30,637 nucleotides of DNA from Anaerolineaceae bacterium 46_22. GTDB lineage: Bacteria; Chloroflexota; Anaerolineae; Anaerolineales; Anaerolineaceae. The stretch covers positions 1 to 30,637 of the forward strand of contig LGHA01000001.1 of NCBI GenBank assembly GCA_001508595.1. The letters are read 5' to 3'. The translations under genes and the position numbers were made by a program. Of this stretch, positions 491 through 24,895 are shown piece after piece (within the stretch, counting starts at the first letter, position 1; every line of letters begins with the position of its first letter). The notes below the pieces were generated by a model. The model was given only the letters and a program-made list of their open reading frames with translations, ran no database searches and had not been told where the DNA came from.

Positions 491-2632
491 ATGCCGGAAA
501 ATTTTATGAACCATCAACATGAACCGGAAAATCAAAATCAGGAAAGCGTTTGGGATTATTTTGTTGAAAAAATAAAATTCTGGACGCATGACCCGGTTGA
601 AAAAGAAAAAATAGAAGCTCCAGGAACAATCACAAACATACCAGCTTTTCCATGGTTGAGCCTGGTGTCTTTGATCCTTGGATTAATGGCTCAACTAACA
701 TTTGAACCTTCGCCTGGACGAACGCCATGGCCCGGGATTGTCTTGTATTTAGCGGCTGGGGGATGTTTACTGGCATCCATTTTACGTCGAGAATGGCGAT
801 TACCCGATCTCAAACCTGACCAGGATGAGCCGATGAGCACAGCCTTCAGGCTTGATTTTTTCTTGATTGGCCTTCTTCTGGCAATTCTTGCATTCGTTTT
901 ATTTGGCAGCGGAAACTTTGGCTTGCTGAACACTTCTTTGTGGCTGCTTTCGATCGTTTTTGTTTTCCTTTCTTTTGGGAAAATGAATAAAAAGGAAGCT
1001 CAGCTGCGTAAAAACATTCTCCGCTGGATCAAAGCGGAGAATTGGCATATTCGTATCTCCCGCTGGACGATCATCGTCCTGGGGGTGATCGCGATTATCC
1101 TGTTCTTCAATTTTTATCGCCTTGATTCTGTTCCGCCGGAGATGGTTTCAGACCAGGCAGAAAAATTACTGGATATCAACGATATTCTTAATGGGAGCAG
1201 GGCGGTTTATTTCCCGCGAAATACCGGCAGGGAACCGATACACTTTTACCTGACAGCCATGTTTATGGCGGTCTTCAACCTGGAAGTTTCATTTTTGAAT
1301 CTGAAAATCGTCGCTGTCTTTGCGAATTTGCTAACGCTTTTTTTCATTTACTTGCTTGGCAAAGAGGTTGGGAATAAATGGGTGGGTTTAGGGGCGGCAT
1401 TATTTGCAGGGATGGCTTATTGGCCTCTTTTGTTCACAAGATTAGCACTGCGTATTCCCTATTATCCCCTGTTTGTTGCCCCGGTCATGTATTTTATGGT
1501 TCGTGGTTTTCGCCGGCAAGATGTTAAGGATATTTTGCTGACAGGACTGTTTCTTGGCCTGGGTTTGTACGGATATACCCCTTTCAGAATTGTGCCGATC
1601 TTTGTTGTTCTGGCAACAATCATTTTTCTTATTCATAAACCCGCTGAGAACAAGCGCTTACAAGTAATTTTCGCTTTAGCACTGATCACACTGGTTTCAC
1701 TGGTTGTGTTTGTTCCATTGCTGCGTTACTGGCTGGCGAATCCGGATCTGTTTGCTTATCGCGCTTTCTCAAGGCTGACAGGCATGGAAGCAGGATTTCA
1801 AAAAGCACCTGTATTGATCTTCTTGGAGAATTTTTGGAAAGCAAGCATCATGTTCTTTTGGGATAACGGTGTGATCTGGGCGCATTCTATTCCCGGAAGG
1901 CCTGCACTTGAGCTTGTCTCTGGCGCGTTATATTTTTCAGGTATTGTTGGTTTGCTGGTCCGTTACATCCGCAAACGCCGGTGGGTTGATTTATTCTTGC
2001 TGGTTTCAATCCCGATAATGATGATGCCGTCCATCTTATCCCTGGCATACCCAGGGGAGAACCCAAGCTTAAACCGGACAGCGGGTGCTGTGGTGCCGGT
2101 TTTTGTGGTTATTGGATTATCCCTTGAAACGTACATTCGCACATTTCGTGCGCGATTTTCAGGGACGTTTGCAAAAATTGCTCCCGCTGCTATTCTTGGA
2201 GTTTTGGTCTTGTGGTCTGGCTTGAATAACTATGATCTTGTCTTTAACCAGTACTATCAGATCTACAGGGCATCCAGCTGGAATACTACGGAGATTGGCG
2301 ATGCTGCCAGGTTCTTCATTGAATCCATCGGTTCGCCGGAGACCACCTACCTCGTTGGGTATCCCCATTGGGTGGATTCGCGATTGGTGGCGATCAATGC
2401 AGGGCAGGCTGGCAGGGACTTTGCAATATTTCCGGAGCAAATTCCCGCAACACAGGATGACCCTCGGGCAAAAATGTTTTTTGTGAACATGTACGATACA
2501 GAAAACATCGAATTACTCGAAGATACATATCCCCAGGGGGCTTTGTGGAAACACGATTCGGACGTTGAGAATAAGGATTTCATGATCTTTTTTGTGCCAC
2601 CAACACAGGGAACGGGAGCCAATGACAATTAA
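491..2632 (+). CDS. GT39/PMT-like multi-pass membrane glycosyltransferase
   Basis: A 713-residue integral membrane protein. A cytosolic, charged N-terminus of about 50 residues precedes a long series of hydrophobic segments. After a membrane helix near residues 192-207 comes the loop FYRLDSVPPEMVSDQAEKLL, which places an acidic residue (Asp221) where GT39/ArnT/PMT enzymes carry the catalytic Asp of the first external loop. The next loop has NTGREPIHFYL, also usual in Chloroflexota members. The C-terminal 100 residues after the last helix look soluble. Such enzymes move a sugar from a polyprenyl-phosphate donor to protein or lipid on the outer face of the membrane; the acceptor is unknown here. 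An in-frame ATG at 506, with GGAAA just before it, is an alternative start. The 3' end overlaps the next gene by 11 bases, so the two are probably translationally coupled. Confidence 0.8.
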   Translation: MPENFMNHQHEPENQNQESVWDYFVEKIKFWTHDPVEKEKIEAPGTITNIPAFPWLSLVSLILGLMAQLTFEPSPGRTPWPGIVLYLAAGGCLLASILRREWRLPDLKPDQDEPMSTAFRLDFFLIGLLLAILAFVLFGSGNFGLLNTSLWLLSIVFVFLSFGKMNKKEAQLRKNILRWIKAENWHIRISRWTIIVLGVIAIILFFNFYRLDSVPPEMVSDQAEKLLDINDILNGSRAVYFPRNTGREPIHFYLTAMFMAVFNLEVSFLNLKIVAVFANLLTLFFIYLLGKEVGNKWVGLGAALFAGMAYWPLLFTRLALRIPYYPLFVAPVMYFMVRGFRRQDVKDILLTGLFLGLGLYGYTPFRIVPIFVVLATIIFLIHKPAENKRLQVIFALALITLVSLVVFVPLLRYWLANPDLFAYRAFSRLTGMEAGFQKAPVLIFLENFWKASIMFFWDNGVIWAHSIPGRPALELVSGALYFSGIVGLLVRYIRKRRWVDLFLLVSIPIMMMPSILSLAYPGENPSLNRTAGAVVPVFVVIGLSLETYIRTFRARFSGTFAKIAPAAILGVLVLWSGLNNYDLVFNQYYQIYRASSWNTTEIGDAARFFIESIGSPETTYLVGYPHWVDSRLVAINAGQAGRDFAIFPEQIPATQDDPRAKMFFVNMYDTENIELLEDTYPQGALWKHDSDVENKDFMIFFVPPTQGTGANDN

Positions 2633-5600
2633 TCGTCAAAAATCGGCTCGGAATAAAGCGCTGCAATGGGGCAATATCTTTATCCTGGTTGCCTTGCTCA
2701 TGACACTTGCTGTAGGGGCTCATTTACGCCTGGTAGGTGTTAATTGGGATGAAAACCAGCATATGCACCCTGATGAGCGATTTCTTAGTTTGGTGCAATC
2801 TGCAATTTCACCGGTCAACAATGCTTCAGAATATTTCAACACGGAAACGTCCAGCCTAAACCCTGCAAATCGTGGGCATACCTTCTTTGTTTATGGGACA
2901 TTGCCAATTTTTATCATCCGATACATTGGGGAAGCCCTGGGAAAAACGGATTACCACGCAATTACGATTGTTGGCCGTCATGTCTCCGCAATATTTGATG
3001 TGCTAACGATTTTGCTGGTGTTTGCTATCGGGAAAAAATTATATAACCGGTGGGTGGGCTTGCTCGGTGCAGTATTTTATGCCACGGCTGTATTGCCAAT
3101 CCAACTTTCCCATTATATGACGGTGGATACGATTACCAATACATTCACATTCCTGGCAATTTATGCAGGTGTTTGGGCGCTCAAGCGTCGACCTGTTTTG
3201 GAACGCAAGCATCCTGTTGGCGTGGAGGATCAGGCTGAGGTTGACTCAAATGATGATACTGATCGTCAAGAGGTAAGCTCAGGAAGTTTTGGGATGCTCA
3301 TTAAGGATTTAGCACCGTACATTTTATTTGGCATTGCCCTGGGTGCAGCGACAGCTTCAAAGATCAACGCTGTTGTGGTGGCGATGGTCTTGCCTTTGGT
3401 TGAGGCAATTCGTTACTTTAAGAAGGATCCAGTTGAGCGGGACAGGGAAATTCTCCCGATAATTCGCAACCTTGCACTGGCAGCCGTACTTAGTTTTGTT
3501 GTCTTCCGTATTGGACAGCCCTACGCATTTAATGGGCCGGGCTTTCTCAATTTCGGCATTGACGAGAACTGGTGGCTCAGCATTCAAAATTTACGTTCCC
3601 AGGCTTCAGGGCAAGTTGATTTTCCACCGGCATTGCAATGGGCGCGTCGGCCAATTACTTTTTCTTGGGAGAATATGGCTGCCTGGGGTCTTGGTTGGCC
3701 CCTGGGAATTCTTGCAACTTTGGCGTTCCTGGGAATGGGATTGGCTATTCTGAGAAAAAAGAATTGGACCACGCACCTGCCTCTGTGGGTTTTTACAGGT
3801 TTGTACTTTGCCTGGCAATCCTTCTCGTGGGTGCGGTCTATGCGCTACCAGGTTTTGATTTATCCATCCCTGGCATTATTTGCCGGATGGGGACTGGTTG
3901 AGCTTATCACTATAAAGAAAAGCTTCAAGCTCGGTTCGATAAGGATCAAACCGAAAATTCTTCGTGCAGCAGCCATCATTCTGACAATTTTTGTCCTTGT
4001 GAGCACCGCCAGCTGGGCGTTTGCTTTTTCTCGTATTTACACACGGCCGCATACCCGTGTTGCTGCCAGCCGCTGGATTTATCAGAATATTCCAGGGGCA
4101 TTGACACTTGAGCTGCAAACAGAAACCGGGGATTTTCAGCAGCCCTTGCCTTACCGCGCAGGGGACATCTTTAGCCCGGGCGAAAGCTTTCGCATGCCAT
4201 TTTACGCTGTTGCAAATGGCAGCCTGCACAGCTTGAGCTTCCCGTATATTTTAGATCAATCGCAGATTCCAGAGCAGAAGACACTATTGCTTACGATTGT
4301 TTCTGCTGATGCCCCTGAGGAAGTACTGGGAAGTGCTCGCATCCAGGATGGTTTCGGGGCAACAGAGGGTGATTGGCGCGGCGCATCTTATGAATTTGTT
4401 TTAGATCGTCCAATAACACTGTCAGAAGGGAATCTGTATTATTTTTCTTTGGACGAGCTTGAAGGCGAAGCGACTTTTCTCTTGAATGGTTCACCATCCA
4501 TGATCATCGTGACCTTGGATGGACAAACTATTAAAAACCCCTTACCCCGCATTCAACAAGGCGTTCGCAAGGACAACCCCTACACCATGAGTGTTCAGCT
4601 TGTCCAGGATGGCCAAATAACTGCTGTCACCACACCTTATTTGGTTGACCAATCCGGAAAAACGGGTGAAAAAACGCTGAACCTCAGCCTGACGCTTGTT
4701 GATCAGGGCGGTGTTTCGCGTTTCTCCGTCCTTCATGCCACATTTGAGCCCGGGGATGATTTGCGTGGAAAAGCTTACACATTTGAATTGGATCAACCGC
4801 TTGGTGTAAAAGCTGGACAAACACTGACGGTTACCATGACCACGGATAAAGAGGGTGTTAGGCTGGTTCCCCAGGCACCGGTGCCGGTGCATGAAAGCAG
4901 CTGGGATGACGCTGTTCCTTACCCCGTTGACGGGTTTAACCCCTACAGTGAAAGCGGCGGTATCTATCGCGGTGATTTGAATTTTGAAATGTATTGGGCG
5001 GACGATCAGGTTAAACTTGAGAGATTTGAAACCAATCTAGACCTGGCAGACTACATCTTTATAAGCTCCAGCCGTCAATGGGGAACAACAACACGGGTGC
5101 CTGAAAGGTATTTATTGACGACAGCCTATTACCGCAACCTTTTAGGCTGTCCGCAGGAAGAAGATGTTGAATGGTGTTATTCTGTTGCAGAGCCCGGTAT
5201 GTTCGAAGGGACACTTGGCTTTGAGCTGGTTCAGACCTTTACCTCTCATCCCAGTATTGGTCCCCTGGAATTTAATACACAATTTGCTGAAGAAGCTTTC
5301 ACCGTTTATGATCATCCGAAGGTTCTAATTTTCAAGAAATCAAAAGACTATGACCCTATCCAGTTGCGAGAAATACTGCGGTCAGTGGATTTGAGTAAGG
5401 TAGTCTATTTTACGCCAGGGGAAGCGGCAAATTATAAAGGACCTGATCCTGAAGGACTTTATGAACCTCGGTTTAACCTGATGCTCCCAGAAGACCGCCT
5501 TCAAAGTCAGCGAGAAGGGGGCACCTGGTCAGCATTATTTGATCGAGATCGGTTGATTAATTCATCAGAATTTTTGGCGGGTGCCGCTTTTTACTGCCTG

Positions 5601-8018
5601 GTAAGCTTCCTCGGTTTGGTTGCATACCCGATCATCCGGATGGCTTTGCCAGGTTTGGCAGACAGGGGATACCCCTTATCCAAACTGGCTGGATTGTTGA
5701 TCCTGGCATTTGCAGTATGGATTCTGGGTTCTTTCGGTGTGCCCTTCTCTGTTACAACGATTGTGTTTGTCTTGTTAGGAATGATCATCATTTCCTTGCT
5801 CTTCATCTTGATGCAGAGGCAAATGCTTTGGCGTGAACTAAAGGAAAATTGGCGATATTTCTTAATTGTTGAAATCCTTGCATTGATCGCCTTTGTCTTC
5901 TTCATCCTGGTGCGCCTGGGTAATCCGGACTTGTGGCATCCATTCAAGGGTGGCGAGAAGCCTATGGACTTCTCCTACCTGAACGCTGTGCTCAAAAGCA
6001 CAAGCTTTCCGCCTTATGATCCTTGGTTTGCAGGTGGGTATATCAATTATTATTATTTTGGTTTTGTGATCCTTGGGGTTCCAATCAAATTATTAGGGAT
6101 CGTGCCTGCAGTTGCTTATAACATCGTCCTCCCAATCTGGTACAGTATTCTGATTTTGAGCGCTTTTTCTGTTGGATGGAATCTCTTTAAAGGCATTCCA
6201 GCCTTTAGCGCTGTATCGGGTGGTGAAAAGGATAAGAAAAGGTTCTTCCCGACAGCATTTTGGGTGGGTTTGGGTTCTGCAATCCTGCTGGCTTTTTTAG
6301 GGAATTTGGGCACAATTGATTTGATCATTACCGGTTTTCAACGGATCGCTTCAGGCGGCGCACTGATTGATGAAGCGGGTTTTGGTCAGCGGGTTAGCTG
6401 GGCTTTCCAGGGATTCTTCCAGTTTTTGCAGGGGACACCCATGCCCTTCTACCCGGGCGATTGGTACTGGTTTCCCAGCAGGGTCATCCCGGGTGATCCC
6501 ATTACAGAATTCCCGTATTTTACATTTATTTACGGTGATCTTCACGCACACCTGATTGCCTTTCCGATTACCCTATTTGTGATCAGCTGGAGTCTTTCAG
6601 TGGTGTTGAGTAAAGGCCGCTGGGGTGAAGCTGACGGTAAATTTAAATGGCTAGGGCGTGCCATTGGTTTCATCTTGGGTGCAATTGTGATTGGCGCTTT
6701 GAGACCGACCAACACCTGGGATTTTTACACCTATATTGTATTGGCTTCCCTGGCATTGCTTTACAGCGTTTTTAAGAATTACCAGCCAAGGTTGAAGCTA
6801 ACATTTAAGAGGGCGGGTTTTGCGGAAAAGGCTGTTGTTGCTCTTGGGGCTGTTTTCTTGCTGGTTGGGATGGCATTATTGTTCTATCAGCCTTTTGCAT
6901 ACTGGTTTGGGCAGGGCTATACACAAATTGAATTCTGGCAGGGAGATCGAACCCCGCTGAAGTCGTATTTCATCCATTGGGGATTATTCCTGTTTATCAT
7001 CATCAGCTGGATGGCCTGGGAAAGCTACCATTGGATGAAGACCACGCCACGTTCAGCATTAGCTCGTCTTGAACCTTATAAACCATGGTTATTATCGGGA
7101 TTGATCTCGCTGGCAATATTATTGCTTATTTTCTTGGTATCCGGTGTGGTTGTTGGCTTGGTGGCTGTCCCACTGGGTTTATGGGCAGTCATTTTGATGC
7201 TAAGACCGGGACGCTCGGATGGCATGCGCTTTTTGTTGTTCCTAATTGGAACTGCTGTCACGCTTACGCTTGTCGTTGAATTGATCTATCTTCCCGGTGA
7301 TATTGGGCGGATGAACACGGTCTTCAAATTCTATTTGCAGGCATGGGTGATGTTTGCCTTATCAGCAGGTGTGTGTTTGGGGTGGGTTCTGAAATCACTG
7401 CGTTATTGGCGTGAGCACCTGGCATTTTTGTGGCAAGCGATGTTATATATGCTGCTGGCAGGGGCGGCTTTGTTTACTGTGATGGGGACTATGGATAAAA
7501 TTCAGGACCGCATGGCTTTGGATGCGCCGCATACTTTAGACGGTATGGCATATATGGAATATGCGACATATTATGACCTGGGTGCCCAAATGACTTTAAG
7601 TGAAGATTACCAGGCGATCCGCTGGATGCAAGAAAATATCCAGGGTTCACCGGTGATTCTCGAGGGGCAGGCTTATGAATATCGCTGGGGAAACCGATAT
7701 ACGATCTACACAGGTTTGCCAGGGGTTGTTGGCTGGAACTGGCATCAACGGCAGCAGCGCGCGATTTTGAAAAGTAACATTGTGCAAGAGCGCGTCGATT
7801 CAGTCAATGCCTTTTACCTGACTGAGGACATTGGTCATGCCGTCGAACTCATCAATAAGTATGATGTCAAGTATGTCGTTGTGGGTCAATTGGAAAAAAT
7901 CTTTTACCCGGGTCCGGGTTTGGATAAATTTGACGCTTATGAAGGCCAGTTTTGGCAGCAGGTTTATCAGGTTGGGGAGACAACCATTTACCAGGTGTTG
8001 GAAGCGCCTGCCAATTGA
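2622..8018 (+). CDS. Giant GT39-like / DUF2298 (Chlor_Arch_YYY) fusion membrane protein
   Basis: A 1798-residue protein. I place the start at ATG 2622, preceded by GGGAG at 2614-2618 and overlapping the upstream stop, rather than at the in-frame TTG at 2592. Domains in order: a GT39-type core (about 20-480) with first-loop acidic motifs NWDENQ (Asp43-Glu44) and HPDERF (Asp51-Glu52) and the later HYMTVDTITN; a soluble extracytoplasmic part (about 490-970) holding two similar beta-rich repeats (533-626 and 664-750); new membrane helices from about 986; then a DUF2298 module to the end. That module contains YYYFG at 1143-1147, matching the YYYxG signature that names the Chlor_Arch_YYY family, and GWNWHQRQQR near 1704. 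DUF2298 function is unknown. The fusion suggests a two-active-site or donor-acceptor membrane enzyme in glycan assembly; this is inference. Confidence 0.85.
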   Translation: MTINRQKSARNKALQWGNIFILVALLMTLAVGAHLRLVGVNWDENQHMHPDERFLSLVQSAISPVNNASEYFNTETSSLNPANRGHTFFVYGTLPIFIIRYIGEALGKTDYHAITIVGRHVSAIFDVLTILLVFAIGKKLYNRWVGLLGAVFYATAVLPIQLSHYMTVDTITNTFTFLAIYAGVWALKRRPVLERKHPVGVEDQAEVDSNDDTDRQEVSSGSFGMLIKDLAPYILFGIALGAATASKINAVVVAMVLPLVEAIRYFKKDPVERDREILPIIRNLALAAVLSFVVFRIGQPYAFNGPGFLNFGIDENWWLSIQNLRSQASGQVDFPPALQWARRPITFSWENMAAWGLGWPLGILATLAFLGMGLAILRKKNWTTHLPLWVFTGLYFAWQSFSWVRSMRYQVLIYPSLALFAGWGLVELITIKKSFKLGSIRIKPKILRAAAIILTIFVLVSTASWAFAFSRIYTRPHTRVAASRWIYQNIPGALTLELQTETGDFQQPLPYRAGDIFSPGESFRMPFYAVANGSLHSLSFPYILDQSQIPEQKTLLLTIVSADAPEEVLGSARIQDGFGATEGDWRGASYEFVLDRPITLSEGNLYYFSLDELEGEATFLLNGSPSMIIVTLDGQTIKNPLPRIQQGVRKDNPYTMSVQLVQDGQITAVTTPYLVDQSGKTGEKTLNLSLTLVDQGGVSRFSVLHATFEPGDDLRGKAYTFELDQPLGVKAGQTLTVTMTTDKEGVRLVPQAPVPVHESSWDDAVPYPVDGFNPYSESGGIYRGDLNFEMYWADDQVKLERFETNLDLADYIFISSSRQWGTTTRVPERYLLTTAYYRNLLGCPQEEDVEWCYSVAEPGMFEGTLGFELVQTFTSHPSIGPLEFNTQFAEEAFTVYDHPKVLIFKKSKDYDPIQLREILRSVDLSKVVYFTPGEAANYKGPDPEGLYEPRFNLMLPEDRLQSQREGGTWSALFDRDRLINSSEFLAGAAFYCLVSFLGLVAYPIIRMALPGLADRGYPLSKLAGLLILAFAVWILGSFGVPFSVTTIVFVLLGMIIISLLFILMQRQMLWRELKENWRYFLIVEILALIAFVFFILVRLGNPDLWHPFKGGEKPMDFSYLNAVLKSTSFPPYDPWFAGGYINYYYFGFVILGVPIKLLGIVPAVAYNIVLPIWYSILILSAFSVGWNLFKGIPAFSAVSGGEKDKKRFFPTAFWVGLGSAILLAFLGNLGTIDLIITGFQRIASGGALIDEAGFGQRVSWAFQGFFQFLQGTPMPFYPGDWYWFPSRVIPGDPITEFPYFTFIYGDLHAHLIAFPITLFVISWSLSVVLSKGRWGEADGKFKWLGRAIGFILGAIVIGALRPTNTWDFYTYIVLASLALLYSVFKNYQPRLKLTFKRAGFAEKAVVALGAVFLLVGMALLFYQPFAYWFGQGYTQIEFWQGDRTPLKSYFIHWGLFLFIIISWMAWESYHWMKTTPRSALARLEPYKPWLLSGLISLAILLLIFLVSGVVVGLVAVPLGLWAVILMLRPGRSDGMRFLLFLIGTAVTLTLVVELIYLPGDIGRMNTVFKFYLQAWVMFALSAGVCLGWVLKSLRYWREHLAFLWQAMLYMLLAGAALFTVMGTMDKIQDRMALDAPHTLDGMAYMEYATYYDLGAQMTLSEDYQAIRWMQENIQGSPVILEGQAYEYRWGNRYTIYTGLPGVVGWNWHQRQQRAILKSNIVQERVDSVNAFYLTEDIGHAVELINKYDVKYVVVGQLEKIFYPGPGLDKFDAYEGQFWQQVYQVGETTIYQVLEAPAN
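4218..4871 (+). repeat. Two tandem beta-sandwich-like repeats inside the GT39-YYY fusion
   Basis: Residues 533-626 and 664-750 of the encoded protein align by eye. Shared landmarks, in order, are PYILDQS / PYLVDQS, TLLLTIVSAD / TLNLSLTLVD, and DWRGASYEFVLDRPI / DLRGKAYTFELDQPL, each followed by a turn (LSEG / VKAG) and a closing strand. The pattern of alternating hydrophobic residues suggests an extracytoplasmic beta-sandwich, possibly glycan-binding. The copies have diverged, so this is a protein-level duplication and not a recent DNA repeat. Confidence 0.7.
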
Positions 8019-8241
8019 TTTATATTTTAGATAATGGGATGGGCTGACCGCCAATATTATTTAAACTGGAAATTGAGACGCCTGAAGGGTTTTGGCAAGT
8101 ATAATAGCAAGTGACATTATTATGGATGTCGGTGATTGAGATATTTGTTCGCACTTCCCGTGGATGTGTTTTACCGGCGAAGCCCATTAACGACGATTTA
8201 TTGAAAATTTTTATGCTGAGTTGGCATCATGGAAAATCTTT
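8019..8241. other. Intergenic region, possible weak promoter only
   Basis: This 223-base gap separates the giant fusion gene from the third GT39-like gene. A perfect TATAAT occurs at 8100-8105, but no acceptable -35 element sits 16-18 bases before it (TTGAGA at 8073-8078 is 21 bases away). No terminator hairpin was seen. A 26-codon open frame from ATG 8034 has no recognisable product. Confidence 0.35.
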
Positions 8242-9942
8242 ATGAAGTTTGAAAACAAACCCATTTTTCACAAGCTGGTTTTATCAGGCGCTTTTATAAC
8301 TGCCATTGTGCTCAGGTTGCTCCGATTGGGGGCAATGCCTTTAACGGATATGGAAGCAAGTATTGCACTGCAAGCGTTGGCTGTCGGGCAAAAAACGGAG
8401 ACAATTTTTGGTGGACACATGACCTACGTGGGTTTGACCGGGATTGATTTTTTCCTGCTGCACACAGGTAATTTTTTGGCTCGGTTTTGGCCGGCGCTGT
8501 TTGGTGCATTAATCGTTTTTGTCCCGTTTCTTTTTCGAAATTACATTGGCAATTTGCCTGCAAACATCCTGTCTTTCATCCTGGCTTTATCGCCTGAGAT
8601 GGTTGGGCTTTCTCGTATGATCGGCTCACCGATGATCGCCTTTGTGCTGCTGCTTTTGACACTTGGATTGATCAATCAAAAGAAACCCATACTTTCTGGT
8701 GTATCGTTTGCCCTGGCTTTAATGGGTGGTTCGGGATTTTGGACAGGCATTGTTTTGGTCGGGCTCAGTTTATTAACTGCAAAAGCGGTTCTGCAAATAC
8801 CTTTTGAGGGATTTTTTGGCGAATTTTTCAAACACAAGGATGATCGCCTAAAGTTCTTGATCGCCTTTGGATTGACAATCGTGCTGGTTGCCACGGGGTT
8901 TTCCCTGGCGACCGAGGGCTTAAGCGGGGTGTTTTCAGGTGCTGTTGATTTTGTTCGTGGATTTGGAATGCCTTACATCGAACCCTTTGTCTTGAAACCA
9001 CTTGCGCTTGCTGCATACAGCCTGCCTGCGGTTATCTTTGGGCTCTGGGGCGGCATACAGGGGCTCATCAAGCGCAGTAAACCTGATATATTCCTGTTGA
9101 TCACAGCACTGGCCGGCTTTATTTACCTGCTCCTTTACCCGAACGCAAGCCCTACGGATATCATTTGGGTAAGCTTACCGCTCTGGACCTTATCTGCCAG
9201 GGTGATTGCTGCTGTGTGGCGTTGGCCTGAGGAAAATCAATTTGTGATGATCATCACTTCCGTAATGGTTGTGATTGTGTTTGCATTCACCCTTTTGGCA
9301 ATGCGGTCACTGGTTAGTCCAACGATCAACCAGGAGGCGCGTTTGACAACCTTCATCGCGCTTGCAGGCGGGTTTGTTTTGATGATTGCTTTGGTGCTGC
9401 TGGTGACCTATGGCTGGTCAGAAGATGTGGCGTTACCCGGATTATTGATGGGCCTTTCCGTCGTGGTTCTTCTGGGGATGCTTTCACTAACGGTCAGAAC
9501 GACCAGCATCAGCCTGGAAAGGACCCATGAATTATGGCACCCACAAGAATCCAGTTTATCGACCCAGTGGTTAAAGGTATCCCTTGATCGGGTTTTGGAA
9601 TGGAATAAAAGAACGACAATGCCTATTGAAATCGCTGTGGCTGACTTCGATACGCCTGGGATGCGCTGGGTCTTGCGGGATTACGAGAATGTGGTTTTTG
9701 TGCCTTATGTGCCGCCTTCCTCGCAGCCGGGAATTTTGATTTCAGACATACTAACTCAGCCTGAAATTTCAAACTCATATCGCGGTCAGGACCTGGTTTG
9801 GTCACAGACCCCGAATTGGCAGGGAATGACGCCTTTTCAGTATCTAAGCTGGTTGATGACCCGAGACACCCCGGAAACAACCAGGGAAATTATCTTCTGG
9901 GTAAGAACAGATTTGATGCCAGATGAGCAATTTGCACAATAA
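8242..9942 (+). CDS. Third GT39-like multi-pass membrane protein
   Basis: A 566-residue membrane protein. ATG 8242 is chosen because GGAAA at 8231-8235 lies 7 bases upstream; an in-frame TTG at 8221 has no such site. The first external loop reads LGAMPLTDMEASIALQALA, with Asp36 and Glu38 at the position of the GT39 catalytic acid. About ten further hydrophobic segments follow, and the C-terminal 130 residues look soluble and extracytoplasmic. It is shorter than its two upstream relatives and lacks DUF2298. It probably acts in the same glycan or glycoprotein pathway, but similarity is limited to the membrane core, so the enzymatic assignment is tentative. The gap upstream may allow independent expression. 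Its end lies 31 bases before the chosen start of cmk. Confidence 0.7.
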   Translation: MKFENKPIFHKLVLSGAFITAIVLRLLRLGAMPLTDMEASIALQALAVGQKTETIFGGHMTYVGLTGIDFFLLHTGNFLARFWPALFGALIVFVPFLFRNYIGNLPANILSFILALSPEMVGLSRMIGSPMIAFVLLLLTLGLINQKKPILSGVSFALALMGGSGFWTGIVLVGLSLLTAKAVLQIPFEGFFGEFFKHKDDRLKFLIAFGLTIVLVATGFSLATEGLSGVFSGAVDFVRGFGMPYIEPFVLKPLALAAYSLPAVIFGLWGGIQGLIKRSKPDIFLLITALAGFIYLLLYPNASPTDIIWVSLPLWTLSARVIAAVWRWPEENQFVMIITSVMVVIVFAFTLLAMRSLVSPTINQEARLTTFIALAGGFVLMIALVLLVTYGWSEDVALPGLLMGLSVVVLLGMLSLTVRTTSISLERTHELWHPQESSLSTQWLKVSLDRVLEWNKRTTMPIEIAVADFDTPGMRWVLRDYENVVFVPYVPPSSQPGILISDILTQPEISNSYRGQDLVWSQTPNWQGMTPFQYLSWLMTRDTPETTREIIFWVRTDLMPDEQFAQ

Positions 9943-9973
9943 TCGTATCAGACAGGATTGGAATTATTTACGC

Positions 9974-10654
9974 ATGGGATTACCAAAAACAATTGCAATT
10001 GACGGCACAGCAGGTTCGGGGAAATCAACCCTGGGATCTTTACTGGCAGAAGCCCTTGGCTATTTATATCTTGATACAGGTGTGATGTACCGTGCAGTCA
10101 CCCTGGCTGTGATCAAGGCGGGATTAAGTCTTGACGATGAATCTGCTATTGGTGAGCTTGCACGGAAAGTTCGTATCGATGTTCGACCCCCCTCGATCGA
10201 TGACGGTCGCGATGTGGATGTGCTGCTTGATGACGAAGATGTCACCTGGGAAATTCGCCAGGATGACGTAAATGCCTGGGTCTCACCCGTTTCTACACAG
10301 CGTGCAGTCAGGGATGCGATGACCGAGCAGCAGCGCCGGATTGCCCAGGAGAACAATGTCGTGATGGTTGGCAGGGACATCGGTACCGTCGTCATTCCGG
10401 ATGCGGACTTGAAAATTTACCTTGACGCATCTTTAGAGGTCAGAGCACATCGTCGATACCAGGAAATGCTCGAAAGGGGAGAGACGCCTGATTTCAACGC
10501 TGTGTTAGCGTCTTTGAAAAACCGAGATAAGATTGATTCAAATCGTGAAATTGCGCCCTTAAAACCTGCTGAGGATGCTTACATCATCGATTCGGATAAT
10601 TTGAATATTTGCCAGGTCTTCGAAACAGCGAAGGCATTGATCTATCGTATGTGA
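9974..10654 (+). CDS. cmk: Cytidylate kinase
   Basis: Phosphorylates CMP and dCMP with ATP in the cytosol, feeding CTP and dCTP synthesis. From ATG 9974 the protein has 226 residues, normal for the family. The P-loop GTAGSGKST lies at 11-19, the CMP-binding stretch LDTGVMYRA at 33-41, the family motif VGRDIGTVV near 131, and the C-terminal NREIAPLKPAEDAYIIDSD contains the lid/CMP-contact residues. An in-frame ATG at 9923, overlapping the preceding gene, would add 17 residues. Neither start has a strong ribosome-binding site, and 9974 fits the usual compact N-terminus (charged stub then IAIDG). The last codons read ATG-TGA, and the remnant of a C69 dipeptidase gene begins right there. Confidence 0.95.
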   Translation: MGLPKTIAIDGTAGSGKSTLGSLLAEALGYLYLDTGVMYRAVTLAVIKAGLSLDDESAIGELARKVRIDVRPPSIDDGRDVDVLLDDEDVTWEIRQDDVNAWVSPVSTQRAVRDAMTEQQRRIAQENNVVMVGRDIGTVVIPDADLKIYLDASLEVRAHRRYQEMLERGETPDFNAVLASLKNRDKIDSNREIAPLKPAEDAYIIDSDNLNICQVFETAKALIYRM

Positions 10655-10937: not shown

Positions 10938-13900
10938 ATGTCAGATATCTTTGCGCCACTCATGCCGGAATATACGATTGACCTCCCAAAGGACCCCATT
11001 GCCTTAGTTGCATGGGTGATCCTGTTTGGGTTAATTGTGTTTTTCATTATTCGCTTGAGGGAAAAGGGGGCAAAAATAAGACGGGAGTCTTTAATCTGGA
11101 TGGCGATTTTGAGCGTATTGGTTCTGGTATTCACGCCATTTATTGGTATCCCGCTGGAAATTAACTCAGGAAATGTTTTCAACCAGGGAAAAACTTTTCA
11201 TATCATGTTTTTTGCTGCCGTTCCCTGGCTTGCTGCTGGCGGCATTATCGGTTTCATTCCAGCGAGTTTGATAGCAGGTGTTTCGGGGCTTTTATATGCC
11301 TATTTAGAAACGCACCATATTTTTACACCCTTGATTTTCATCAGTTTTGCATTGTTCTATACCTGGGGGGTTCGCCAGAATTATCATACTGCTTTTTACC
11401 GCTATTTACGAATTCCAATTATCTCTGCTTTTTTAGCCTTGATTATGACGACGCCGCTGATCTTTCTGACCCAGATTTTCATAAGTTCTGGTGACTATCC
11501 CTTCAGGATTGCGATTGTTTTGGCGAGGATGCCGGCGATATTGATATCCTATGGTGGGATGCTGTTTTCCGGCAGCCTTATTTGTATCATCTTGCGAGCC
11601 CTTTTCCCGAACAAATGGGTAAGCCCTGCAGCCTTAATGCCGTCACCGAGTGAAAAAAGTGTAAAAAGCCGATTTTTACTGATTACGGTCCCTATCATGC
11701 TGGGAATTCTGATCCTCTTTGTTGGGGCAGTTTGGCATGTGAACGTCAATTCTTCACGAAGTGATCTGGTAGGTAAGTTGGTGAATGTCTCTGAAGTTGG
11801 TGCTGATGCCTGGACAACCTTCGTTGATACAGGTTTTCTGACCCTGGATGAAATTGGTAATGCCGTCCAATCAACTGGTGGGGCAGGTCCTGATTTCCAG
11901 CAGCTGCTTTCTAAGAAAATTGAAGAGGAGTCTTTCTTCGATCGTCTCATAATTCTTTCACCTGATGGAGAAATTATCTCAGCCTATCCAGGTTCAGGGG
12001 ATGTCGAGCCAATCGAGATACCTGATGCAGTTTTTACTGACAGCGATGATTTCGTGAAGGTGGCGGCCCGTTCTGGAAGGCTGGATGCCGAACTGAACTT
12101 TTTCGAGTTCCTTCCCCAAGCTTCTGATGGGATGGTGCGGGTACTGTTGGGGCAAACAAATATTAATCAGAACCCTTATGCCAGAGCATTTTTGTCAGCA
12201 TTTACTTCACTTAAGAAATTTGATGCCGATGGACAGATCCTGACACGTTCAGGAGAGATCCTGTTTGAACTGGATCCTGACTCTCTTTACGGAGATTTAC
12301 CTGAAGAATCCTTTGCAACGCCGACCTTTTATGAGACAGGATCTCCGGAAGGCGAGCCATTGATGAAGTATTATGCGCCGATTGAAGGTACAGCATGGGC
12401 TGTATTCACACAAATTCCTGCATCCGTCATTTACCAGGCTGCCTGGCAGCAATCTTTACCGGTTTTATTGACTGGAATCGGTATTTTGCTCGTCCTTCTT
12501 TTTGCTGCGTTATATACATGGACGCCCGTTCTTAAGGACATTCGTTTAATTTCTGAGGAAATGAAAAAACTTTCTGATGGCCGTTTTGAAATTCAGTTTA
12601 CTGAGCCAAAATCAAAGGGTGAAGTTACACAATTATTTGAACGTTTTTACCTGATGACCGGAACGCTTGGCAATCGAATGAAAAAACATGAAGATTTATT
12701 GACGTTAAACGAAAAGATGTCCTTCCAGAATAATCTCCATGATTCACTACAAGCGATTATGCAATCTGCCCTCAGCCGTGGGATATCTTCTGTTCGACTG
12801 CTTCTCAATGATGGGGTGGCGGTTGGCAAGGAGGGATTCTACGCCGGTTCTCAAACGGATACCTACAGCCACCTTGACAAAGAAGTCGCGGCAATTGTGC
12901 GTTCACAGGGCGAACTGGTTTTGCGGGATTCTCAAATTGGCAAGCGATTGACATTCAACAAAAGCCTATCTTATCCTTTAGCGATAATTGGGCTGCCAAT
13001 GTCATGGCAGGGAGACGATCAAGGTGTATTTTGGGTGGCATATCACAAAAAGAAGTCTTTTACTGCTGAGGATATTGACTTCTTCCATTCATTATCCAGC
13101 AAGGCAGCAGCAATCATTGCGAAGGGAATCTCCTTTGATAATGCGGTCACGCTGAAGACTCATTTAGAAGCGATATTGGACAACCTGACGGATGGCATCC
13201 TCCTTTTGAATGGAGAAAACCAGGTTGTTTACCACAATCACGCTGCTCGGCTGATGCTTGATCTGGAACATATCACTCTGCTTAATGCGCCTATCACATC
13301 CTTGATAAGTGACAGGCTGTTGTCTGAAGCAATAATGGCAGGTGAAAACCGGGGTAATGACGCTCGAGAATTCAGATTGGCAGATAACGGCGTTTATAAG
13401 TTGGAAATTTCATCGGTTGATCTTGCGGGTCAGCAGCAGGGTAAAGTGGTGATATTTAAAGATATTCGCAGCGCGAAAAAGCGAGAGAAGCTCGGGTCAG
13501 AATTTGTGACAACAGTCTCCCATGAACTGCGTTCACCGCTAACACTGATACATGGGTATGCAAAATTATTGCGGCTTACAGGAAATTTGAATGAGCAGCA
13601 AGATGCTTACATCAACAATATCATCAATGGGGTTGAGGAGCTGAAAACACTGGTTATTAACCTTCTTGATATTGGGCGTTTGGAATCAGGGAAAACACTA
13701 GAAATTAAGCGTATTTCGGCGCAGGGCATGGCAAAAAACGTCGTCGAGAGCATGCAGCCTTTTGCCAGGCAAAAGAACATTCACCTGGAACACGTATTAC
13801 CAGATTTCCCGGTTGAAATTGAGGGTGATGAGGCATTCCTTGCCCAGGCACTAAAAAACCTTTTAGAAAATGCAATTAAATTCACAAAAATGGGCGGCGA

Positions 13901-14183
13901 TGTGTCTTTATCTGTTAGAAAAAAGGAAGATACTGTGGTATTTGCAGTCAAAGATACCGGCATCGGGATTGCTCCCCTGGACCAGCGTCATCTTTTTGAG
14001 AAATTCAAACGCCCCAGCGTAAATTTAGGGCAAGAATCAAAAGGGAGTGGTTTGGGATTGGCAATTGTCAAATCCATTGCTGAAAGACATGGGGGGAAAG
14101 TGTGGTTTGAGAGCCAGCTTGCAAGGGGAAGCATCTTTTACCTGGAAATTCCGATCAAGTATGACAGCAGGGCTGGTTTATAG
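10938..14183 (+). CDS. Large multi-domain membrane sensor histidine kinase
   Basis: A 1081-residue sensor kinase. The N-terminal 270 residues hold about eight membrane helices, the last at about 247-268. A soluble extracytoplasmic region (about 270-505, Cache-like in size and place) follows, then a helix at 506-528 and a HAMP linker (529-580). Next come a GAF-like domain (about 600-735) and a PAS domain (about 742-845). The kinase core has the H-box VSHELRSPLTLIHGY with phosphorylatable His862, the N-box NLLENAIKFT (974-983), the G1 box DTGIGI from Asp1006, and KGSGLGLAIV near 1035. It should autophosphorylate His862 and pass phosphate to a response regulator, but no receiver domain is fused and no regulator gene lies in the window, so it is an orphan kinase here. 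The signal is unknown. Confidence 0.95.
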   Translation: MSDIFAPLMPEYTIDLPKDPIALVAWVILFGLIVFFIIRLREKGAKIRRESLIWMAILSVLVLVFTPFIGIPLEINSGNVFNQGKTFHIMFFAAVPWLAAGGIIGFIPASLIAGVSGLLYAYLETHHIFTPLIFISFALFYTWGVRQNYHTAFYRYLRIPIISAFLALIMTTPLIFLTQIFISSGDYPFRIAIVLARMPAILISYGGMLFSGSLICIILRALFPNKWVSPAALMPSPSEKSVKSRFLLITVPIMLGILILFVGAVWHVNVNSSRSDLVGKLVNVSEVGADAWTTFVDTGFLTLDEIGNAVQSTGGAGPDFQQLLSKKIEEESFFDRLIILSPDGEIISAYPGSGDVEPIEIPDAVFTDSDDFVKVAARSGRLDAELNFFEFLPQASDGMVRVLLGQTNINQNPYARAFLSAFTSLKKFDADGQILTRSGEILFELDPDSLYGDLPEESFATPTFYETGSPEGEPLMKYYAPIEGTAWAVFTQIPASVIYQAAWQQSLPVLLTGIGILLVLLFAALYTWTPVLKDIRLISEEMKKLSDGRFEIQFTEPKSKGEVTQLFERFYLMTGTLGNRMKKHEDLLTLNEKMSFQNNLHDSLQAIMQSALSRGISSVRLLLNDGVAVGKEGFYAGSQTDTYSHLDKEVAAIVRSQGELVLRDSQIGKRLTFNKSLSYPLAIIGLPMSWQGDDQGVFWVAYHKKKSFTAEDIDFFHSLSSKAAAIIAKGISFDNAVTLKTHLEAILDNLTDGILLLNGENQVVYHNHAARLMLDLEHITLLNAPITSLISDRLLSEAIMAGENRGNDAREFRLADNGVYKLEISSVDLAGQQQGKVVIFKDIRSAKKREKLGSEFVTTVSHELRSPLTLIHGYAKLLRLTGNLNEQQDAYINNIINGVEELKTLVINLLDIGRLESGKTLEIKRISAQGMAKNVVESMQPFARQKNIHLEHVLPDFPVEIEGDEAFLAQALKNLLENAIKFTKMGGDVSLSVRKKEDTVVFAVKDTGIGIAPLDQRHLFEKFKRPSVNLGQESKGSGLGLAIVKSIAERHGGKVWFESQLARGSIFYLEIPIKYDSRAGL

Positions 14184-14225
14184 ACTTTCGTACTTGATTG
14201 TGGTAGAATTCTCACCTTGAGTTAT

Positions 14226-23141: not shown

Positions 23142-23801
23142 TTATTGGGGGAAAATGGGTTCGGGTTGACCTAAGATTGGCTGCGGATGCCCGATATAGA
23201 CATCCCAGTAGGCTTTAATGGATGCCAAAATTTCACGCACCCACCAGAAGGTGTAGCTGCTGAGACGATAATTTGAATCATCAGCTGGAACACCGTTAGC
23301 ATCGATATCAAAAGCATTGCAGATGAAAAGCGCACGCGGCAGGTGATAGGCTTGGGTTACAACTGTCAATTTTTCAAGGCCAAATATCGCCTTTGCCCGA
23401 TAGCAGCTGTCGTAAGTGCGTCTGCCGGCAAAATCCACAACAATGTCTTCTTCAGGGATACCCAATTCAATTGCAAATTCCTTCATCGCACCGGGCTCAT
23501 TATAATTGAGCGATGTGTTATCCCCGCTCATCAAGATTTTCTGTACCTTGCCTGAAAAATATAATTCTGATGCGGTGCGCACCCGGTCTTGCAGGACTAA
23601 ACCAGGGGTGCCGTCTCGATTTAATCCCGCCCCAAGAACAAGCGCAGCCGGTGTTTGGGGCACAGAATCGGGTAAAAAGGTTTTTTCCTTCCCATAAAGA
23701 AGCATAGCAAGCCGAAGAATGCCGATGGTAAAAAAAACGGCAAAAGAAAGATAAATTAAGAAATGGAAAAAACGGCGAATTATTTTTTGAATGGGTTTCA
23801 T
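23142..23801 (-). CDS. SanA/YdcF-like DUF218 membrane-anchored protein
   Basis: A 219-residue protein of the DUF218 (ElyC/SanA/YdcF) family. One N-terminal membrane helix (about 12-34) follows a basic start, leaving the rest probably outside. Family blocks in order are AALVLGAGLNRDGTPG, RVRTASELYFSGKV, ILMSGDN, EPGAMKEFAIELGIPEEDIV, AGRRTYDSCYRAKAIFG and TVVTQAYHLPRALF. SanA-type members influence envelope permeability in enterobacteria; their biochemistry is unclear. The ATG overlaps the upstream stop by four bases (ATGA), indicating translational coupling with the PhnD-like lipoprotein. That pairing supports a cell-envelope role but does not define it. Confidence 0.88.
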   Translation of the reverse strand: MKPIQKIIRRFFHFLIYLSFAVFFTIGILRLAMLLYGKEKTFLPDSVPQTPAALVLGAGLNRDGTPGLVLQDRVRTASELYFSGKVQKILMSGDNTSLNYNEPGAMKEFAIELGIPEEDIVVDFAGRRTYDSCYRAKAIFGLEKLTVVTQAYHLPRALFICNAFDIDANGVPADDSNYRLSSYTFWWVREILASIKAYWDVYIGHPQPILGQPEPIFPQ

Positions 23802-24895
23802 GGATTTGTTTTTTGCCTGGTGAGCGCTTGAAGATCCAGTTCTAAAGGGATGATCGCTGCTCTGAGGGGATTGTAGAAGGTATCTTCGATGGTTTTGAGC
23901 GCTTTGACATCATAATTCAAGGCAGTGCTGATTAATGTTAAGCCTTCGGGGGTGTCAGGAATATCCAAAATGGCTTCCTGCAGCTTGTAGCGGATATCGA
24001 GAGGAAGACCTGGTGCAGCGGAGAGATTGGTATTTGGGATGATCCCATCAGACTGCCAGATGATCACCACTTCTTCCTGTGCTTCGGGCAGATCCTGAAG
24101 GACGCCGCTGGAAGTTCTTGGGTCGCCGGTCAGGGCATAACCGACGCCAAAATCACAAATACCCTGTATGTATAAAGCCCGGATGACAGCATCATAATTG
24201 TAAACAAAAACCGGGTCGAGCGTTGGCGTGCTGGTATCTGCAAGCAGTCCCAATGGCAAGAGGTGTCCTGGGAGTGATTCTGGTTCGGTAAAACAGGGGC
24301 GCGTCCCTGAAAATTGCTGCAAGGCTGCAAGCGGGTCCCCTGTGCTTATATTTAATTCGGGATCATAATAGCTTGTGAATCCGCGTTCAATGTTTGCCAT
24401 GAACTGAACCCCATACGCATAAACCCCAAGGTGATTGGTGAGGAGCATGACCTGTGCTGCTCCTTCCCAATTTAAATAGATGTATTCCAGCGGTTTCAAC
24501 CAGAATAAATCCACATCGCCATTGATGATGCCTGCTGAAAGGCTCTGGAAGTCGGGATAAAAAGTGCTTTCGATGTTAAAGCCAGTGTCCTGCCCGATGA
24601 GGAAAGCAATGTCCTCTGCCGCCTCAATGGATGCGGTTTGCTCAGGTTTGAGGATGAAACCTATGGTGATGGGATTGCCCTCGGATCCTAAGGGGGGGAG
24701 GGTAGGTGTTGACGTTGGCCTTGGTGTGACAGTTTGTGTGGCAGTTGACCGGATCTCAGTGGTTGCTGATGGTGTTACTGTTGGTGGTGGGGTGTTTGGT
24801 GCACAGGCAGAGGCAAACAGGATGATCATGACCATGCCCAGCAGGCTGGTGTGGATGAATTTTCTGTGTGTATTTCTGGATTTATTCATTTTCAT
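23798..24895 (-). CDS. PhnD-like phosphate/phosphonate-type solute-binding lipoprotein
   Basis: A 365-residue lipoprotein. A basic N-terminus and hydrophobic core end in FASAC, with Cys31 as the lipidation site. A Thr/Pro/Ser-rich linker (about 32-70) then tethers the domain to the membrane surface. The mature part resembles PhnD-type periplasmic binding proteins (ITIGFILKPEQTASIEAAEDIAFLI, NGDVDLFWLKPLEYIYL, GICDFGVGYALTGDPRTS and a late DIRYKLQEAILDI). No permease or ATPase gene is adjacent, so it may serve a transporter encoded elsewhere or act as a sensor. It overlaps lipM by four bases upstream and the SanA-like gene by four bases downstream. ATG 24889 is a possible second start. Confidence 0.8.
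   Translation of the reverse strand: MKMNKSRNTHRKFIHTSLLGMVMIILFASACAPNTPPPTVTPSATTEIRSTATQTVTPRPTSTPTLPPLGSEGNPITIGFILKPEQTASIEAAEDIAFLIGQDTGFNIESTFYPDFQSLSAGIINGDVDLFWLKPLEYIYLNWEGAAQVMLLTNHLGVYAYGVQFMANIERGFTSYYDPELNISTGDPLAALQQFSGTRPCFTEPESLPGHLLPLGLLADTSTPTLDPVFVYNYDAVIRALYIQGICDFGVGYALTGDPRTSSGVLQDLPEAQEEVVIIWQSDGIIPNTNLSAAPGLPLDIRYKLQEAILDIPDTPEGLTLISTALNYDVKALKTIEDTFYNPLRAAIIPLELDLQALTRQKTNP

Follow-up and report, generated by a model that had tools for sequence, protein, structure and literature searches.

The window analysed here, a stretch of 30,637 nucleotides from Anaerolineaceae bacterium 46_22 (Chloroflexota, Anaerolineae; contig LGHA01000001.1), contains at positions 2622-8018 a single gene that joins a membrane half of the GT39/PMT glycosyltransferase type to a complete DUF2298 module, which is also known as Chlor_Arch_YYY and is abbreviated below as YYY. 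This fusion architecture is real and conserved. Its parts are known families; here they are combined in one chain, which ties the orphan DUF2298 to a partner. An initial annotation made from the same letters had stated that DUF2298 has no known reaction, and indeed none is described in the libraries and literature that we searched; we found no description of the fusion there either, although subscription journals were largely missing from that search and either may be described elsewhere. Our preferred reading, to which we give about an even chance, is that the gene and its neighbours may form a unit that assembles a cell-envelope glycan on the outer face of the membrane, in which the GT39 half would act as the transferase and DUF2298 would handle the same donor or glycan; the likeliest part for DUF2298 would be that of a further GT-C-like transferase.

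The product of the fusion gene consists, in order, of the GT39/PMT-type membrane half (residues 1-495), two repeated modules (515-757), a soluble section (758-979) and the DUF2298/TIGR03662 "YYY" module (983-1792). A mechanical list of open reading frames starts the frame at a TTG at position 2592 rather than at the ATG at 2622. The latter overlaps the stop codon of the upstream gene, which suggests coupled translation. The initial annotation had proposed one gene of 1798 residues with a GT39-type core and a DUF2298 module, and this is confirmed by the frame and by profile matches to PMT_2/PMT, PF10060 and TIGR03662.

DUF2298 is matched by two library models at full or nearly full length. PF10060 covers residues 1027-1578 with profile positions 1-488 of 488 (E 9.4e-112; 374.9 bits against a cut-off of 27.8), and TIGR03662 covers residues 983-1792 with positions 1-726 of 727 (516.3 bits against a cut-off of 300.25). 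The YYYxG signature occurs as YYYFG at residues 1143-1147, so that the earlier claim of a complete module with its signature at this place is borne out.

The N-terminal half, judged by its profiles, is a GT-C homologue. When the whole protein of 1798 residues is scanned against Pfam, no PMT family is listed; when the N-terminal 979 residues are scanned alone, PMT_2 reaches 31.4 bits against a cut-off of 26.1, and PMT reaches 19.3 bits, below its cut-off of 22.7. The same scan of 31 N-terminal halves, including that of the window, matched PMT_2 in 27 and PMT in 20 (E up to 1), and in other genomes PMT exceeds its cut-off in frames that also hold YYY, for example in a frame of 1645 residues on contig C75 of genome G351 (48.2 bits). 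In profile-profile comparisons with hhalign, the core of the GT half matched PMT at 99.8% (reversed control, 0.5%), the PMT_2 neighbours at 97.5%, the Agl23-like family at 90.2% and TIGR03663 at 87.8% (controls below 1%), and STT3 at 90.1% in one comparison and 95.6% in a second. The half contains ten hydrophobic segments, and an acid pair in its first outer loop (D51-E52, in the motif HPDE) is invariant in 60 sequences.

The extracytoplasmic section that had been described between the two halves is present, and it contains two tandem copies of a module of about 110 residues. The copies match each other at 99.7% in hhalign (reversed, 8.2%) and at 28% over 90 residues in BLASTP. A Pfam scan of the repeated modules in the window gave no family match, and a sequence search of the PDB with the GT-half alignment yielded no usable relative; its best hit (E 0.022) aligned the repeated modules with fibronectin-binding protein A. 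Judging from the sequence, the middle section as a whole may be beta-rich, as previously suggested. In its last part (residues 758-979), C843 and C852 are near-invariant, as would suit an extracellular disulfide.

For the anatomy of the DUF2298 module, hydrophobicity, conservation and loop charge were averaged over 85 sequences, comprising both fused and standalone copies. The numbers of lysine and arginine residues at the segment ends mostly alternate from loop to loop, and according to the positive-inside rule the strongly conserved polar residues are mostly located on the low-charge, outer side. Note that this topology is tentative, in that parity requires transmembrane segments 5 and 6 to be counted as one crossing. 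R1098 and E1112 are invariant in the 85 sequences and are placed outside by the charge rule; the alignment of their loop with that of the PMT_2 neighbours, described below, is weak (11.7%). The other strongly conserved residues on the outer side include N1364 and D1367, R1563, N1565 and K1569, and those of the C-terminal domain.

The initial annotation had named, as a result that would count against its reading, a fusion found only in this genome and split in all relatives. The survey does not show this: of 80 related loci, gathered by similarity to the module of the window (a sampling that favours the fused type), 72 hold GT and YYY in one frame, and two more are cut by contig ends. Among the others, GT and YYY lie in separate overlapping frames in loci L050 and L113, the module lies near the start of the analysed stretch in L060, L082 and L098, and L105 is without a GT half. 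DUF2298 itself is found more widely. TIGR03662 matches 289 of the 298 sampled genomes of the class, including all 189 whose completeness is 90% or more and whose contamination does not exceed 5%, and therefore DUF2298 probably has a basic role there. The family is also present in Haloferax volcanii. In the class of genome G370, it matches 70 of 100 genomes, with many short frames among the matches listed, and in a survey of the phylum it matches 107 of 151. Among the matches listed in this last survey, which cover 90 genomes, a YYY frame longer than 1250 residues occurs in 67, both long and short frames in 44, and a frame longer than 2000 residues in 16. Only short frames occur in 23, which is an upper limit because lower-scoring frames fall outside the matches listed; in fact, G300, G353 and G362 are counted as short-only, yet fused frames are present when their loci are read. 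Frame length alone does not identify the rest of a frame, and GT halves are confirmed only in the loci that were read.

A tree was calculated from 238 YYY domains that cover most of the core model (233 of them distinct), after frames with unknown residues had been dropped. The split that best separates the fused and standalone labels, which was picked for this property, has a support of 0.913; the 114 distinct first domains that are fused to a GT half all fall on one side, and 106 of the 112 distinct standalone domains fall on the other, leaving six standalone domains on the fused side. Some loci carry GT-YYY-YYY in single frames of 2415-2573 residues (L323 8099-15601, L330 8065-15783, L331 3467-10789 and L332 4233-11477). 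The second YYY domain groups with the standalone type in L323 and L330 and with the fused type in L331 and in L332, and hence extra copies were probably added more than once. We infer from the tree that the fusion is probably old and arose once, and that the later additions would repeat the same combination. Scans of viral contigs, which relied on short conserved patterns, confirmed no relative of DUF2298 or STT3. As a separate observation, a plasmid of Halarchaeum sp. (NZ_CP054708.1; L338 1076-1738) contains an unannotated C-terminal piece of DUF2298 with 31% identity to query residues 552-783, which sits close to the end of the circular record.

The genes around the fusion form a conserved block as well (Table 1). 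In the 80 related loci the order is PMT_2, GT-YYY, standalone YYY, Agl23-like and cmk. Of the loci in which each position could be tested, 60 of 65 have a PMT_2 relative that ends no more than 1 kb upstream; downstream, 59 of 68 have a standalone YYY, 55 of 59 have an Agl23-like gene and 53 of 59 have cmk. The nearest relatives (L035-L038), like the window, are without a standalone YYY at that place, and elsewhere in the phylum the series GT-YYY, YYY, short Agl23-like and long Agl23 is found (L324, L325, L335 and L346). GT39-like genes had been predicted on both sides of the fusion, and this holds: the upstream protein is of the PMT_2 type, and the downstream protein is an Agl23 relative. The latter, encoded at 8221-9942, has no Pfam match and scores 41.7 bits against TIGR03663, below the cut-off of 126.25, while the profile of its family gives 100% with TIGR03663 and 98.7% with PMT. 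The DE and HGP residues, which are invariant or nearly so in 30 members of TIGR03663, are not among the 90%-conserved columns of 61 relatives of this gene.

The genome of the window does hold a standalone DUF2298 of 807 residues, on contig C143 (L003 1941-4364), outside the glycan block, unlike most of the 80 relatives. Near this copy, and named by eye from their translations, lie a glutamyl-tRNA-synthetase-like and a LysM-like/L,D-transpeptidase-like open reading frame.

YYY and the family of Agl23 also share genomes. In the survey of 151 genomes, TIGR03663 is matched with E below 1e-20 in 97 of the 101 genomes that have a YYY match with E below 1e-50, and in none of the remaining 50 (44 without a YYY match and six with weak matches only). 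These thresholds were chosen after the lists had been seen, the tally was made by eye, and a Fisher test was applied. With the curated cut-offs, TIGR03662 is found in 99 and TIGR03663 in 96 of the 151 genomes. The exceptions are G000 (71% complete), G393, G414 and G428. Members of the two families that share a genome need not be neighbours: the strong TIGR03663 frame of G027 is remote from its YYY genes. In another phylum, plasmid pNP95 of Pseudobutyrivibrio xylanivorans (Lachnospiraceae) carries a DUF2298 gene among genes for a glycosyltransferase, an O-antigen ligase and sugar nucleotides.

Taken together, the fusion, the conserved gene order and the co-occurrence of YYY with Agl23 point to a role of DUF2298 in the assembly of glycans from lipid-linked sugars outside the membrane. 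The initial annotation had suggested that DUF2298 is itself a membrane glycosyltransferase or handles the same lipid donor or glycan. The part of this suggestion that stands is that DUF2298 works with a lipid-linked-sugar transferase, as the widespread fusion, the gene order, Agl23 and the plasmid cluster indicate; that it may itself be a glycosyltransferase is less well supported: its membrane core has no convincing match to GT-C profiles, and only its C-terminal part gives a moderate match, to STT3.

Whether DUF2298 resembles GT-C enzymes was examined in several dozen profile comparisons, in which reversed profiles served as controls and the MurJ and NuoL/M families as negative targets. The whole module matches the profile of the PMT_2 neighbours weakly, at 11.7% over 165 columns (reversed, 1.4%). 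This alignment begins at module residue 1, pairs the extra N-terminal helices, and matches the R..EK..D loop of DUF2298 with R..AEK..D, and YYY with HFYLTA, of the PMT_2 neighbours; it is placed where GT-C homology would predict, yet it is too weak to count as more than a weak hint. The upstream PMT_2 protein itself has a conserved SDxAEKxxD in its apparent first outer loop, which resembles the EKPMD of DUF2298. In a comparison by sliding windows the best window does fall on this loop, at 11.7% against 6.1% for the best reversed window; this agrees with the whole-module alignment and is likewise taken as a hint only. At the other end of the module, the last helix with the C-terminal domain matches a profile of 13 STT3 sequences at 70.6% over 151 columns (P 3.9e-5; reversed, 0.2%) and another of 12 STT3 sequences, seven of which have WWDYG, at 54.7%. 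The same region matches the end of the membrane part of the GT half at 46.3%, 57.1% (in one window) and 25.9% in different comparisons. The likeness of the C-terminal part to STT3 is suggestive but no proof.

Several results weigh against the reading of DUF2298 as a second GT-C-like transferase and against its genomic support. The core alone, in a first round of comparisons, stays at or below 2.5% against GT-C profiles except for a 14-column match of 5.8%, and with 125 sequences against six GT-C profiles it reaches at most 10.3% over 23 columns; it has no convincing similarity to PMT, PMT_2, Agl23, STT3 or the GT half. The Pfam GT-C families give zero matches in 21 YYY members. The STT3 match is one among several dozen comparisons, the soluble C-terminal part alone matches STT3 at only 15-21%, and reversed profiles reached 27.6% and 35.7% against TIGR03663. 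WWDYG is absent from the DUF2298 of the window, which has GWNWHQ at that place of the alignment. A PDB search with the C-terminal profile has triosephosphate isomerases at the top (E 0.024), which we take as chance. Moreover, Agl23-type proteins are GT-C-like by profile and one of them is reported to be a flippase, so that a GT-C-like fold is no proof of transfer. On the genomic side, the co-occurrence figures for YYY and Agl23 ignore kinship, weaker TIGR03663 matches are present in 27 of the 50 genomes without a strong YYY, and the DUF2298 gene of pNP95 lies on the strand opposite to its neighbours. In G358, a GT half of 642 residues (L339 9577-11502) adjoins a separate YYY gene of 797 residues (11811-14201), followed by two Agl23-like genes. 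This neighbourhood in itself fits the preferred reading, but the tree puts this YYY with the standalone type, and the arrangement is therefore adjacency rather than a fusion split in two. A PDB sequence search with the DUF2298 alignment found no usable relative (best E 0.1, a designed protein). From the search with the C-terminal profile we do not count as evidence the entry 3vu0 (E 0.14, labelled 'putative uncharacterized protein'), which we take to be the C-terminal domain of AglB.

Among the alternatives, the one with the best, if modest, chance of being right is that DUF2298 is a translocase (flippase) for a lipid-linked sugar or oligosaccharide, with the fused GT39 half using the substrate thus delivered. 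Its genomic companion TIGR03663 is related to GT-C enzymes by profile, yet an archaeal Agl23 is reported to flip lipid-linked oligosaccharide (PMC11182771); DUF2298 itself could be a flippase, and its roughly 17 predicted hydrophobic segments and the lack of a convincing GT-C match of its core would fit this. However, the conserved charged residues of DUF2298 lie mostly in outer loops, and the block already holds an Agl23-like gene.

The boldest reading would make DUF2298 a hitherto undescribed branch of transferases or ligases of the GT-C type related to STT3, in which the C-terminal domain of the STT3 type is retained, GWxWHQxQQR replaces the sequon-reading WWDYG and the EKPMD loop is catalytic; the GT-YYY and GT-YYY-YYY chains of Chloroflexota would then be single-chain assembly lines of two or three GT-C modules that extend and attach a surface glycan. 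We consider this doubtful. STT3 was also examined in its own right. STT3-family genes (L205, L234, L295-L302, L319 and L320; WWDYG in 7 of 12) occur in a minority of Chloroflexota genomes. In one class, strong STT3 matches (E below 1e-15) are found in nine of 100 genomes, and DUF2298 is present in three of these nine as against 67 of the other 91 (Fisher P 0.02, uncorrected for kinship); a strict mutual exclusion of STT3 and DUF2298 is rejected, since three genomes hold both.

Less probable again is that DUF2298 is a non-catalytic module that binds the acceptor, or holds a complex together, for the GT39 half and the Agl23 and PMT_2 proteins. The fusion and the repeatedly added copies do suggest a complex, and a review speculates that GT-C enzymes of smaller size may depend on an additional protein to bind the acceptor (PMC8035078). 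On the other hand, E, D, H, R and K residues that are conserved in an alignment of fused and standalone copies are spread over several separate loops and resemble an active site, and DUF2298 also stands alone on a bacterial plasmid and, among the matches listed, as short frames only in the 23 of 90 genomes (an upper limit) mentioned above. That the fusion serves shared expression only and DUF2298 has a role unrelated to glycans is very improbable: DUF2298 has no assigned reaction and the block also holds a gene that does not belong to glycan synthesis, cmk, but single and multiple fusions, conserved gene order, co-occurrence with Agl23 and the presence of DUF2298 in a polysaccharide cluster of another phylum all argue against it.

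If the preferred reading, a glycan assembly unit with two transferase-like halves, is correct, the pathway might run in the following order. A polyprenyl-linked sugar would first reach the outer side of the cytoplasmic membrane, possibly with the aid of the Agl23-like protein. The Agl23 of Haloarcula hispanica is reported to flip lipid-linked oligosaccharide in proteoliposomes and to complement a yeast rft1 deletion (PMC11182771), and the companion gene may therefore supply the substrate; note that this protein is tied to TIGR03663 through the NCBIfam name. The GT39/PMT-type half, with its acid pair, would then transfer the sugar from the polyprenyl-linked donor, and the fused DUF2298, its conserved residues predicted to face outward, would act on this lipid-linked donor or on the newly made glycan. 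It would most likely do so as another transferase of GT-C-like type, for which E1112 is the candidate acid. The acceptor would probably be held by the repeated modules together with the two soluble sections.

Table 1. Features of the fusion gene and of the adjacent genes in the window
Feature	Position	Strand	Basis
GT39-DUF2298 fusion gene, 1798 residues	2622..8018	+	Single open frame, ATG to stop
GT39/PMT-type half, residues 1-495, about ten predicted membrane helices	2622..4106	+	PMT_2 scan, hhalign, topology, conservation
Repeated module, copy 1, residues 515-636	4164..4529	+	At least 50 residues present in 35 of 60 aligned sequences
Repeated module, copy 2, residues 637-757	4530..4892	+	Present in 60 of 60 aligned sequences
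Conserved section, predicted extracytoplasmic, residues 758-979	4893..5558	+	Conservation, topology
DUF2298 / Chlor_Arch_YYY module, residues 983-1792, 17 predicted hydrophobic segments	5568..7997	+	Pfam, NCBIfam, topology
First large outer loop (predicted): invariant R1098 and E1112 (GGEKPMD), near-invariant D1133, YYYxG 1143-1147	5913..6062	+	Conservation, charge
Second outer motif (predicted): W1283, R1287, E1296, D1306, H1308, H1310	6468..6551	+	Conservation, charge
RMNTVFKFY motif, residues 1563-1571, predicted outer side	7308..7334	+	Conservation, charge
C-terminal soluble domain, residues 1625-1798; conserved W1705, H1708, Q1711, R1713	7494..8015	+	Conservation; moderate similarity to STT3 C-terminus
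PMT_2-type GT-C protein, 713 residues, directly upstream	491..2632	+	PF13231, 40.3 bits against a cut-off of 26.1
Agl23-like (TIGR03663-related) GT-C-type protein, 573 residues	8221..9942	+	Family profile; below curated cut-off
(d)CMP kinase gene, closing the conserved block	9923..10654	+	Library scan; conserved downstream

The fusion provides the orphan DUF2298 with a partner enzyme, a donor class and candidate residues. At the same time, it is common equipment of its phylum and hence ordinary. A 2025 study of a cultured Chloroflexota bacterium describes probable O-glycans on its archaellum and proposes that they are the product of bacterial machinery already present (PMC12488501); the block described here is one candidate maker of such glycans.

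Elsewhere in the window, a gene for a phosphonate-type periplasmic binding protein (23798-24895) lies amid genes for a lipoate ligase, a DUF218 protein and an HD-domain protein, and no ABC permease or ATPase is among the matches of the ten proteins scanned around it.

Finally, we compare the fusion with the closest known systems. DUF2298 is described as occurring in single-domain proteins and in a two-copy form with TPR repeats. The module of the window agrees with PF10060 and TIGR03662 in its full-length match above both cut-offs and in YYYxG, and differs in being the C-terminal part of a GT39 fusion. Similarly, the N-terminal half agrees with GT39 families PMT (PF02366) and PMT_2 (PF13231) in exceeding the PMT_2 cut-off when scanned alone and in the invariant acid pair of its first outer loop, but here it is fused to DUF2298 and followed by two repeated modules without a Pfam match. 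The Agl23 family (TIGR03663) is akin to the downstream gene by family profile and shares genomes with YYY, whereas that gene itself remains below the cut-off and its family does not conserve DE and HGP at the 90% level. STT3/AglB matches the GT half core by profile and aligns, moderately, with the last helix and C-terminal domain of DUF2298; it differs in that the DUF2298 of the window has no WWDYG and no convincing core match. Some larger GT-C enzymes have extracytoplasmic sections as here (PMC8035078). In a broader sense, the block is similar to multi-component transmembrane glycosylation systems made up of a GT-A enzyme, a flippase and a GT-C enzyme, in that several GT-C-like proteins are encoded beside an Agl23-like protein; it differs from them in that several polytopic modules are combined in one chain.

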